Assembly (NCBI RefSeq): GCF_004118375.1
Contig: NZ_SDHX01000001.1
Coordinates: 992,001 to 1,056,000, forward strand
Source of the DNA: Oleiharenicola lentus
Lineage (GTDB): Bacteria > Verrucomicrobiota > Verrucomicrobiia > Opitutales > Opitutaceae
Reading direction: 5' to 3'
DNA length: 64,000 nucleotides
The stretch's first letter is position 1. Each line of letters opens with the position of its first letter. A program made the position numbers and the translations under genes. Shown in pieces: positions 750 to 62,964 of this stretch. The notes beneath the pieces are model-generated. The model saw only the letters and a list, made by a program, of their open reading frames with translations. It had not been told where the DNA came from and did not search any database.

Positions 750-826
<77 letters not shown>

Positions 827-8066: not shown

Positions 8067-8156
8067 GGAGGGGTGGCAGAGTGGTTGAACGCGCCGCACT
8101 CGAAATGCGGTTTAGGCTAAACCCTAACGTGGGTTCGAATCCCACCCCCTCCGCCA
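8067..8156 (+). tRNA. tRNA-Ser(CGA)
   Basis: Complete class II tRNA of 90 nt including encoded CCA: acceptor GGAGGGG pairing with CCCCTCC, anticodon CGA in the CTCGAAA loop, a long variable arm (TTTAGGCTAAACCCTAAC) and the T-arm GGGTTCGAATCCC. Its last 28 bp are duplicated at 13753-13780 and form the attachment core of the island that follows. The gene remains whole because the insertion restored the 3' end. Confidence 0.96.
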
Positions 8157-60392: not shown

Positions 60393-61187
60393 TCAAAACT
60401 CGAAGGCGGGCGTGCCGGCGCCCGGGGCGACGACCGAAAACCCGCATTGCCGGGCGGCCAGCACGGTGCCGCAGGCGGCCGCGACGGCTTCGGGCGAGTT
60501 GCAGTCGCGGCTGAGGTGGGTGAGGAACACGTGGCGCCAGCGGGCGCCGGCGGTGGTTTCAAGGAGTTCGCGGGCCGCGGAGTTGGAAAGGTGGCCGTGC
60601 CGGCCGCCGATGCGCTGCTTGGTGGACCACGGGCGCTTGGTGTCGGCCTGCAGCATCTGCGAACAGTGGTTGGCCTCGACGACGAGCACGTCGGCCTCGC
60701 GGATGTGTTCGCGGATGTGCGCGGGCGCGTGACCGAGATCGGTCAGCCAGGCGAGACTTCGGCGCGGCGAGAGCAGGTCGCCGTGGCCGTGGGCGATGAG
60801 GAAGCCGACGGGATCCTGCGCGTCGTGCGGCACGGTGAAGCTGCGCACCTCGAACTCGCGGAAACGGAACGTCGCGCCTGTCTCAAAGAGCTGCCAGTTG
60901 ATCCGGTGCTTGAGGCCGGCCTGCAGGGACTCGGCGGTGCGACGGTTGGCGAAGACCTTGATGCGGTCGTGTTTCGCCAGGCCGGAGAGCGCCGCCGCAT
61001 GGTCGCCGTGCTCGTGGGTCAGGAAGATTGCGTCGATGCGTTCCCAGGACTCGCCCGCCTCGGCGAGGAGTTCGCCGAGTTTTCGCGCCGAGAAGCCCGC
61101 GTCCACGAGCACGCGGGTGTCGTCGGAAGCGAGGAGGGCGGCGTTGCCGGAGCTGCCCGAGCCAAGAATGCGGAACCGCAGGGCCAT
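60393..61187 (-). CDS. Metallo-beta-lactamase-fold hydrolase (YycJ/WalJ-like)
   Basis: 264 residues from ATG at 61187. LGSGSSGNAALL (strand 1), the zinc motif HEHGDH at 58-63, VPHDAQDPVGFLI, EANHCSQML and late THLSRDCNSPE supply metal ligands in the same order as YycJ, a predicted DNA exonuclease of the WalRK locus; the full arrangement also resembles PqqB-like and ribonuclease-Z-like enzymes. No WalRK genes here. The start lies 80 bp left of the first of two identical-core palindromes. The upstream ORF extension to 61328 crosses these and is rejected. Confidence 0.88.
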   Translation of the reverse strand: MALRFRILGSGSSGNAALLASDDTRVLVDAGFSARKLGELLAEAGESWERIDAIFLTHEHGDHAAALSGLAKHDRIKVFANRRTAESLQAGLKHRINWQLFETGATFRFREFEVRSFTVPHDAQDPVGFLIAHGHGDLLSPRRSLAWLTDLGHAPAHIREHIREADVLVVEANHCSQMLQADTKRPWSTKQRIGGRHGHLSNSAARELLETTAGARWRHVFLTHLSRDCNSPEAVAAACGTVLAARQCGFSVVAPGAGTPAFEF

Positions 61188-61267
61188 CGCCGGGATTGAG
61201 GGCCCGCCGCCTGACCCCGGCAATGCCAAATCCGGCCCAGTCCGCCGACCGCCACCCGGCCCGACCC

Positions 61268-61296
61268 GACGAATGTTCGTATTACGAACATTCGTC
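61268..61296. repeat. Palindrome 1: 14-bp arms, core TGTTCGTATTACGAACA
   Basis: 29 bp: left arm GACGAATGTTCGTA, one central base, and its exact complement. Its inner 21 bp are identical with palindrome 2, 60 bp away; the outer bases differ but are paired (GACG/CGTC). Confidence 0.9.
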
Positions 61297-61327
61297 CACA
61301 CGCACCGGGCTGGACGGGTGTCATTCA

Positions 61328-61360
61328 AGGCCCAATGTTCGTATTACGAACATTGGGCCT
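61328..61360. repeat. Palindrome 2: 16-bp arms, same core
   Basis: 33 bp: left arm AGGCCCAATGTTCGTA, one central base, and its exact complement. Outer pairs are AGGCCC/GGGCCT, different from palindrome 1, so pairing has been kept while the sequence changed. 104 bp upstream of the PTPS gene. Confidence 0.9.
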
Positions 61361-61463
61361 GATTGTGAGGGCGGCTGAATTTCGGTGGGGGCGGCAGGAC
61401 ATCCGACTCCGCCAGCACCGTGGGGGTTGACGCAGGCGGCAATCTCGCTTCGCTTGACCCTCC

Positions 61464-61943
61464 ATGCCGAAAAAGACCAACACGCGCAAAAACCGGGAGC
61501 CGTCCGTGCGGGCGCTCGCGGGCACGGTGTTCATCACGCGGCAGGTGCACTTCAACTCGGCGCACCGGCTCTACAACCCGACCAAAAGCCTAGCCTGGAA
61601 CCAGAAGCAATACGGCCTCTGCACCAACCCGCACTGGCACGGTCACAACTACGTGCTCGAGGTCACGGTCAAGGGGCAGCCCGATCCGGTCACCGGCTAC
61701 ATCATCGACCTGGCACGCCTGAAGAAGATCCTGCACCGCGCCGTCGTGGACAAGTGCGACCACCGCAACCTCAACGACGAGGTGGACTTCCTGCGCGGCA
61801 TCATTCCCTCGACCGAGAACCTCGTCATCGCCTTCTGGCACGAGATCGTCTCGCACATTCCGCTGCCCGCCAGGCTGCACTGCGTGAGGCTCTACGAGAC
61901 GCCGCGCAACTACGCCGAGTTCTTCGGCCCGGCCCACCACTGA
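61464..61943 (+). CDS. 6-pyruvoyl-tetrahydropterin synthase / QueD family
   Basis: 159 residues. Zinc ligands H34 (NSAHRL) and the HGH pair (H59, H61) are present, the catalytic Cys is C53, and the late acid is in [13 protein letters not shown]. The spacing C-x5-HGH ([11 protein letters not shown]) is that of eukaryotic-type PTPS, while E. coli QueD has C-x3-[17 protein letters not shown] and DHRNLN also resemble PTPS. Product may therefore be 6-pyruvoyl-tetrahydropterin for a pterin cofactor, or preQ0 precursor. 49 bp before folE2, same strand. Confidence 0.87.

Positions 61944-61992: not shown

Positions 61993-62964
<972 letters not shown>

Follow-up and report, generated by a model that had tools for sequence, protein, structure and literature searches.

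Dispersed palindromic doublets in Oleiharenicola lentus are probably binding sites of a small protein encoded in a palindrome-bounded cassette

Two palindromes in a divergent gap

The window analyzed here is a stretch of 64,000 nucleotides from Oleiharenicola lentus. Near its right end, two perfect palindromes are found between divergently oriented genes. To their left is an MBL-fold hydrolase gene on the reverse strand (60393..61187; Pfam PF12706/PF00753), and to their right a forward-strand pair made up of a 6-pyruvoyl-tetrahydropterin synthase (PTPS)/QueD-like gene (61464..61943; PF01242) followed by the GTP cyclohydrolase gene folE2 (61993..62964; PF02649). Palindrome 1 (61268..61296, no strand assigned) consists of the 21-bp core AATGTTCGTATTACGAACATT between GACG and CGTC, with arms of 14 around a central T at 61282. 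Palindrome 2 (61328..61360, likewise unstranded) carries the same core between AGGCCC and GGGCCT, with arms of 16 around a T at 61344, and the two centers are 62 bp apart. The initial annotation had described one core with different but fully compensated flanks, and every flank base does pair. Searched with up to three mismatches, a 17-mer (TGTTCGTATTACGAACA) gave four matches in the window, which are these two sites read on both strands, versus 0.03 expected from shuffled sequence. An Rfam search of the window returned no RNA family at the palindromes, its matches being two tRNAs only; the tRNA genes lie at 753-826 (reverse strand) and 8067-8153 (forward strand).

Junction comparison places the doublet within an unstranded stretch of ~220 bp (61201..61421) that has no alignment to eight genus members, with exact borders that differ by up to ~25 bp from relative to relative. 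The unaligned gap at this junction measures 10 bp in G003, 9 in G007, 20 in G011, 49 in G004, 51 in G015, 105 in G009, 117 in G013 and 130 in G018, so that in G003 and G007 the two aligned sides are nearly adjacent. A further relative, G020, carries AAAGTTCGTATTACGAACTTT at the place of palindrome 1, and its copy of palindrome 2 has AAAGTTCGTATTACGAACTTT as core with 7 flank pairs.

Dispersed copies and a palindrome-bounded gene

The genome that holds the window (G000; 4.71 Mb, two contigs) has 48 exact sites of the 17-mer, which rules out a unique simple operator. When three mismatches were allowed we obtained 52 and 55 matches per strand, compared with 1 and 0 for the reversed pattern used as a control. 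The suggestion of a dispersed multi-copy unit, which the initial annotation would have given up had the core been unique to this spot, is thus borne out. Cores were also found in 9 of 20 other genus genomes at 1 to 13 copies each (≤1 mismatch), copy number within this one genus ranging from 0 to 52, and the inner 15-mer occurs in 30 of 200 family genomes, G000 included.

Most copies are arranged as doublets. In statistics based on 51 of the 52 copies counted in the genome, another copy lies within 200 bp for 41, and the 21 spacings fall at 52-54 (10), 62-63 (3), 72-76 (4) and 119-122 bp (3), with one at 140 bp. The 17 short spacings are phased near 10.5 bp (R 0.80), a value drawn from one genome to which the 52-54 cluster contributes much of the signal, and out-of-phase spacings such as 44, 49, 57 and 58 bp occur elsewhere. 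Neighboring copies have the opposite center base in 16 of 21 cases. Outside called genes we counted 36 of the 51 copies, with 15 inside; this caller marks 82% of the window as coding. The sites occupy convergent, divergent and tandem gaps as well as gene interiors, and no common function is apparent among their neighbors, most of which were read by sequence only.

Five palindrome copies cluster at 847.6-848.8 kb of contig C1, ~205 kb from the window doublet, around an ORF of 122 aa (847757-848122). The upstream palindrome ends 3 bp before the ATG and the downstream one begins 3 bp past the stop, yielding a palindrome-ATG...stop-palindrome cassette. The G011 orthologue is bounded in the same manner, and the G020 orthologue (L227) is bounded by an altered core, AAAGTTCG..CGAACTTT. 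A YjbR/MmcQ-family gene (L049:2615-2974, G000) adjoins the GTTCG cassette, and its match sits apart from the cassette in G020 and G003. No clean empty site for the cassette was seen within the genus.

The encoded protein is under purifying selection, as dN/dS between three species is ~0.16-0.21. Neither the G000 nor the G011 protein has a convincing match in NCBIfam, PHROGs or PADLOC, the G000 protein has no Pfam match at E ≤ 1, and the G011 protein has none among PDB sequences (best E 0.25). No Y1/HUH match to the palindrome-bounded gene was found in Pfam, NCBIfam or PHROGs. Homologues are HTH-like and 115-140 aa long; in 24 members (24 of 30 loci were used in the alignment) searched at E ≤ 1, weak matches to HTH_3 occur in 6 (best 1.9e-5) and to YdaS_toxin in 14 (best 2.8e-4). 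An AlphaFold2 model (pLDDT 81) predicts that a long N-terminal helix (residues 7-37) is joined to a four-helix domain (54-112) by a basic linker modeled with low confidence; in that domain helix 3 (84-91) would be the recognition helix. This domain resembles lambda and P22 repressors and restriction C proteins at weak scores (VIA Z ≤ 6.7), and Foldseek gave no match at E ≤ 0.001 (best 0.25), with the Foldseek and VIA matches covering only residues ~50-120. Assignment of the model to a lambda-repressor-like fold is therefore weak.

Homologues of the 122-aa protein are present in 102 of 200 family genomes, and a single genome can have as many as 8. A search of 21 genus members found homologues in every one, interrupted by a stop in one case. 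A named scan kept 79 homologue loci, of which one is titled Akkermansiaceae and the others Opitutaceae, Opitutia/Opitutae, Opitutus, Lacunisphaera, Rariglobus, Didemnitutus, or just Verrucomicrobia/Verrucomicrobiota. A homologue is found in all 17 genomes with at least four GTTCG cores (102/200 overall; Fisher 8e-6). With close homologues defined by E < 3e-30, at least four GTTCG cores occur in 11 of 13 genomes that have one versus 6 of 187 others (Fisher p 2e-12), where both this cut-off and the copy-number cut-off were set after the lists were known. The correspondence has exceptions on both sides. Six genomes (G060, G075, G136, G164, G193 and G223) hold 5 to 33 GTTCG cores without a close homologue, and G132, G156 and G199 have 1-2 cores without any homologue. 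The GTTCG core is absent from G091 and G209 despite their close homologues, the G091 cassette having GTCCG instead. Within the genus, cores without an evident GTTCG-type protein among the homologues read occur in G007, G010 and G012, whose assemblies are 82-94% complete (one G007 ORF was not recovered), and cores without such a protein occur in G003 and G013 at one core each.

If cassettes mark dispersed sites, then a different palindrome bounding the cassettes of other genomes should be dispersed there as well. This was the case for GTCACTTAWTAAGTGAC, taken from the cassettes of G153, G169 and G221, which is present in 57, 43 and 22 exact copies in those genomes. It also has 55, 48, 35 and 19 copies in G075, G134, G194 and G128, respectively, and is found in 23 of 200 genomes in total. 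All 11 genomes with at least three copies contain a homologue (Fisher 7.5e-4), this copy-number cut-off, too, having been chosen once the lists were known.

Half-site classes and change of the sites

To compare cassettes, 109 loci (L196-L304) were entered and 82 distinct ones kept, the others being duplicates or having an ORF unrecognised by the search pattern. Of these, 42 have a TAWTA-centered palindrome upstream and 39 have one downstream; 31 have both, and their two half-sites are identical in 30 cases. No such palindrome (arm ≥7) flanks 32 of the 82 on either side. The background over the remainder of the loci is 8 TAWTA palindromes in 313,925 bp. Each cassette was classed by the half-site of the TAWTA palindrome met first in the interval scanned, 50 of 82 cassettes having one, which gave 12 classes, among them GTTCG, GTCCG, TAGCG, TCACT, TCACG, TAACG, TCAAC and TCATC. 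The family thus comprises parallel protein-palindrome pairs with class-specific arms, and several specificities coexist within single genomes. A flank comparison of 11 cassettes gave groups with common neighbors, and cassettes of the same class often share neighbors.

The half-site covaries with the start of the predicted recognition helix. Whether 50, 41 or 29 sequences are kept after redundancy thinning, residues 83, 85 and 88 are the three that share the most mutual information with the half-site; the thinning lessens shared ancestry and does not remove it. Among pairs of proteins with <45% identity elsewhere, residues 83-89 are 72% identical in the 82 pairs with the same half-site versus 43% in the 895 pairs with different ones. 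The GTTCG class mostly has H-R-A-R-I/V-G, the GTCCG class H-x-S-R-I/V-T, the TAGCG class D-P-A-R-M-T (one case) and the TCAAC class R-Q-T/Q-I-N, while the TCACT, TCACG and TAACG classes mostly have P-R-Q-R.

Several other arrangements occur. In cassettes L252, L203 and L290 some palindromes extend perfectly into the flanks, with arms up to 21 that are unlike on the two sides; one flank may have been copied with a hairpin as template. Loci L352 (G014) and L353 (G008) have a 41-bp perfect palindrome, GACGCTCTGTTTGTAATATATTATATTACAAACAGAGCGTC, 60 bp upstream of an HTH gene sub-family. A second HTH sub-family (TRRPG[YH]D..., LGIP[RK]QRL.DFL; L370 in G010, L381 in G018, L383 in G011) is bounded by GTAACCTAWTAGGTTAC, which touches start and stop, and L381 has one downstream copy with a different center (TGTCA).

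The sites have changed in concert between species. Of 22 orthologous sites in a looser set, 19 remained after a position check that removed the L062/L101 pair, whose places do not correspond, and one unanchored L049 site; the comparison omits L045 (unclear copy homology) and L063 (a decayed copy), and uses only the comparable copies of L051 and L049. At 15 of these 19 sites G020 has changed T..A to A..T on both arms, with one arm changed at 2 and no change at 2. Doublet spacings are mostly preserved between G020 and G000, and the cassette palindromes of G020 have changed in the same way. This concerted change is covariation inside the dyad, as expected of a symmetric protein site.

In the four genes compared, single intragenic sites arose by replacement in place. 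In rsmB and mutY, single cores add no length relative to genus members without the core. The residues NVRITNI/NVRNTNI of MoeA and a GH2 enzyme likewise align gap-free to PDB homologues, so that existing codons have been replaced in all four genes. Insertion as the origin of these single sites was accordingly rejected; replacement in place points away from transposition and toward substitution or conversion into the site sequence. The rsmB gene of G018, with a spacer and a second core, does gain 54 bp. Set against the length gain and target-site duplication expected of a MITE or another insertion-sequence derivative, the observations are mixed: none of the four single sites adds length, the G018 doublet does, and the window doublet lies in the ~220 bp that do not align to G003. 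The rsmB site of G003 (L148) has a partly matching AATGTCCGGATTACGAACAGCC, perhaps a core that has decayed or one that is still forming.

Outside the core, pairing is less regular. Over the 51 copies, the run of pairs that continues past the core averages 1.98 versus 1.24 with flanks re-dealt, and 0 of 5000 shuffles reach the observed value. The raised mean is carried by a few long runs, given that just 8 of 51 copies have at least 4 extra pairs (shuffle mean 3.3, maximum 10), the longest runs being 6, 6, 8, 9 and 9. At 114 flank positions of the 19 orthologous sites we observed 5 compensated changes versus 2.1 expected, a count attained in 125 of 2000 shuffles, along with 34 positions that pair in one species only; the looser 22-site set gave 5 versus 2.7 expected (260/2000). 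General flank covariation is weak at most. Palindrome 2 of the window is a real but atypical copy in this respect: each of the two species has 6-7 of its flank pairs, and two positions are compensated. Compensated flanks had been read in the initial annotation as a sign of selection on a hairpin, among other possibilities; the copies at large do not support that reading.

Explanations and relation to known systems

We consider it probable that the doublet in the window consists of binding sites for the small, lambda-repressor/YdaS-like protein of 122 aa encoded ~205 kb away in the palindrome-bounded cassette. Judging from the sequence comparisons and the structural model, the ~50 near-identical dispersed sites are very probably recognized by the product of that gene. 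A dimer would read GTTCG/CGAAC through helix 3, the basic linker perhaps lying at the TAWTA minor groove, and two dimers on helically phased sites might cooperate via their long N-terminal helices. The palindrome that abuts the start codon would allow the partner gene to be autorepressed. Sites and gene appear to form one co-evolving dispersed-repeat module with a REP/RAYT-like layout, in which a binding protein replaces the Y1 transposase, doublets can add length, as in the rsmB gene of G018, and singles would arise in place by substitution or conversion.

As to whether the host or the module benefits, selection on binding is favored by the in-place origin of sites, their enrichment between genes and their conservation at orthologous positions, while widely varying copy number, mixed context, sites flanking the gene on both sides and parallel specificities speak for a repeat module of the REP/RAYT kind. 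Our tentative proposal, which seems to us a plausible one, is an undescribed self-maintaining module of Opitutaceae. Here a small lambda-repressor-like protein, seemingly not an enzyme and encoded between copies of its own perfect palindrome, would seed tens of cognate doublets and singlets throughout the genome, its specificity diversifying by a simple helix code. The sites would spread without a transposase of their own, by in-place rewriting (point substitution or protein-driven conversion) and by local duplication into phased doublets.

A host regulator or chromosome-architecture system is also possible, if somewhat doubtful. The protein would then be a host transcription factor or nucleoid protein, and the doublets beneficial regulatory or looping sites without selfish spread, comparable to LacI or C-protein operators or to site sets of the Noc/MatP type. 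This explanation accommodates the lambda-repressor-like model with its weak HTH_3 or YdaS matches, the low dN/dS, the helical phasing of the short spacings, the retention of sites across species, the intergenic position of 36 of the 51 copies and the appearance of single intragenic sites without length change, as would be expected of selected binding sites. It fits poorly with sites scattered over every kind of gap and inside genes with no shared neighbor function apparent, with the wide range in copy number inside one genus and with several specificities in one genome; nor do autoregulators usually have a site next to the stop codon in addition to one at the start. A LexA operator, a further candidate, seems less likely, its motif differing in spacing from the sites here.

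Small lambda-repressor-like regulators have palindromic operators, and Noc, MatP, SlmA and ParB are small DNA-binding proteins whose palindromic sites are numerous, nearly identical and placed both within and between genes. The predicted four-helix DNA-binding domain is similar, at the level of weak matches, to P22 c2, C.Esp1396I, HipB and YdaS. The present protein differs from these in its predicted long N-terminal helix and basic linker, and in having tens of near-identical sites across the genome as well as one on each side of its gene. From Noc, MatP, SlmA and ParB the system differs in its doublets, in a copy number that is highly variable within a genus and in its many parallel specificities.

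Dispersed palindromic repeats are common in bacteria. Their best-described protein partner is the RAYT transposase (TnpA-REP), with REP/REPIN palindromes often in inverted doublets, a gene flanked by its cognate palindrome, and parallel protein-repeat pairs (PMC3116915). The system described here shares the dispersed palindromes, inverted doublets of typical spacing, the flanked gene and the several protein-repeat pairs. It differs in that the flanked gene is HTH-like and lacks a Y1/HUH match, that the palindrome is perfect with a TAWTA center and has no GTAG/CGTC tag, and that sites arise in place inside conserved genes. Opitutus terrae is reported to be rich in GTAG repeats, and doublets inside genes to encode 20-30 aa (PMC3733652). 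The likeness to such GTAG/CGTC-tagged repeats and to Rickettsia palindromic elements is that a related Verrucomicrobium is rich in palindromic repeats; the differences are the missing tag and single intragenic sites that replace rather than insert.

Mobilization of the palindromes as REP/REPIN elements by a Y1 (RAYT) transposase encoded elsewhere, a link that the initial annotation put forward for checking, is very unlikely. Dispersed doublets that mostly have opposite center bases, the reported abundance of REP-type repeats in O. terrae, also inside genes (PMC3733652), and four Y1_Tnp matches in the genome (L040-L043) would suit it, but no copy of the 15-mer with ≤2 mismatches lies within the fetched ~1.5 kb on each side of those four matches. 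Within 18 bp of the 51 copies, GTAG and CTAC were found at just 2 each, CGTC at 10 and GACG at 6, and the listing of copies shows no tag at any fixed unpaired position. The absence of a Y1/HUH match in the bounded gene and the covariation of the arms with an HTH protein also argue against such mobilization. Selection for a hairpin structure in RNA or DNA (as a terminator, processing site or cruciform) is equally improbable, for despite the perfect dyads, the few copies with long extra pairing, the mean that exceeds all shuffles, the long cassette arms and the slight excess of compensated changes, the core bases themselves are conserved beyond pairing alone, one-species-only flank pairs far outnumber compensated ones, class-specific arms follow the protein helix and no Rfam family lies at the palindromes. 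Of the earlier interpretation, the dispersed palindromic unit is supported; hairpin selection and the Y1/REP transposase are not, and neither is its preference for these over a protein operator, since the arms covary with a cognate DNA-binding protein and protein recognition is the best reading.

Searches of the open-licence PMC literature brought up no account of such a protein-palindrome module, and a term search of PMC12306157 gave no hit. With a binding protein in the place of the RAYT transposase, and three of its residues varying in step with a dozen half-site classes, what sustains such repeats becomes a directly testable question. The cassettes form a naturally occurring set of variants from which a protein-DNA recognition code might be read, and predicted binding sites emerge inside conserved genes without insertion.
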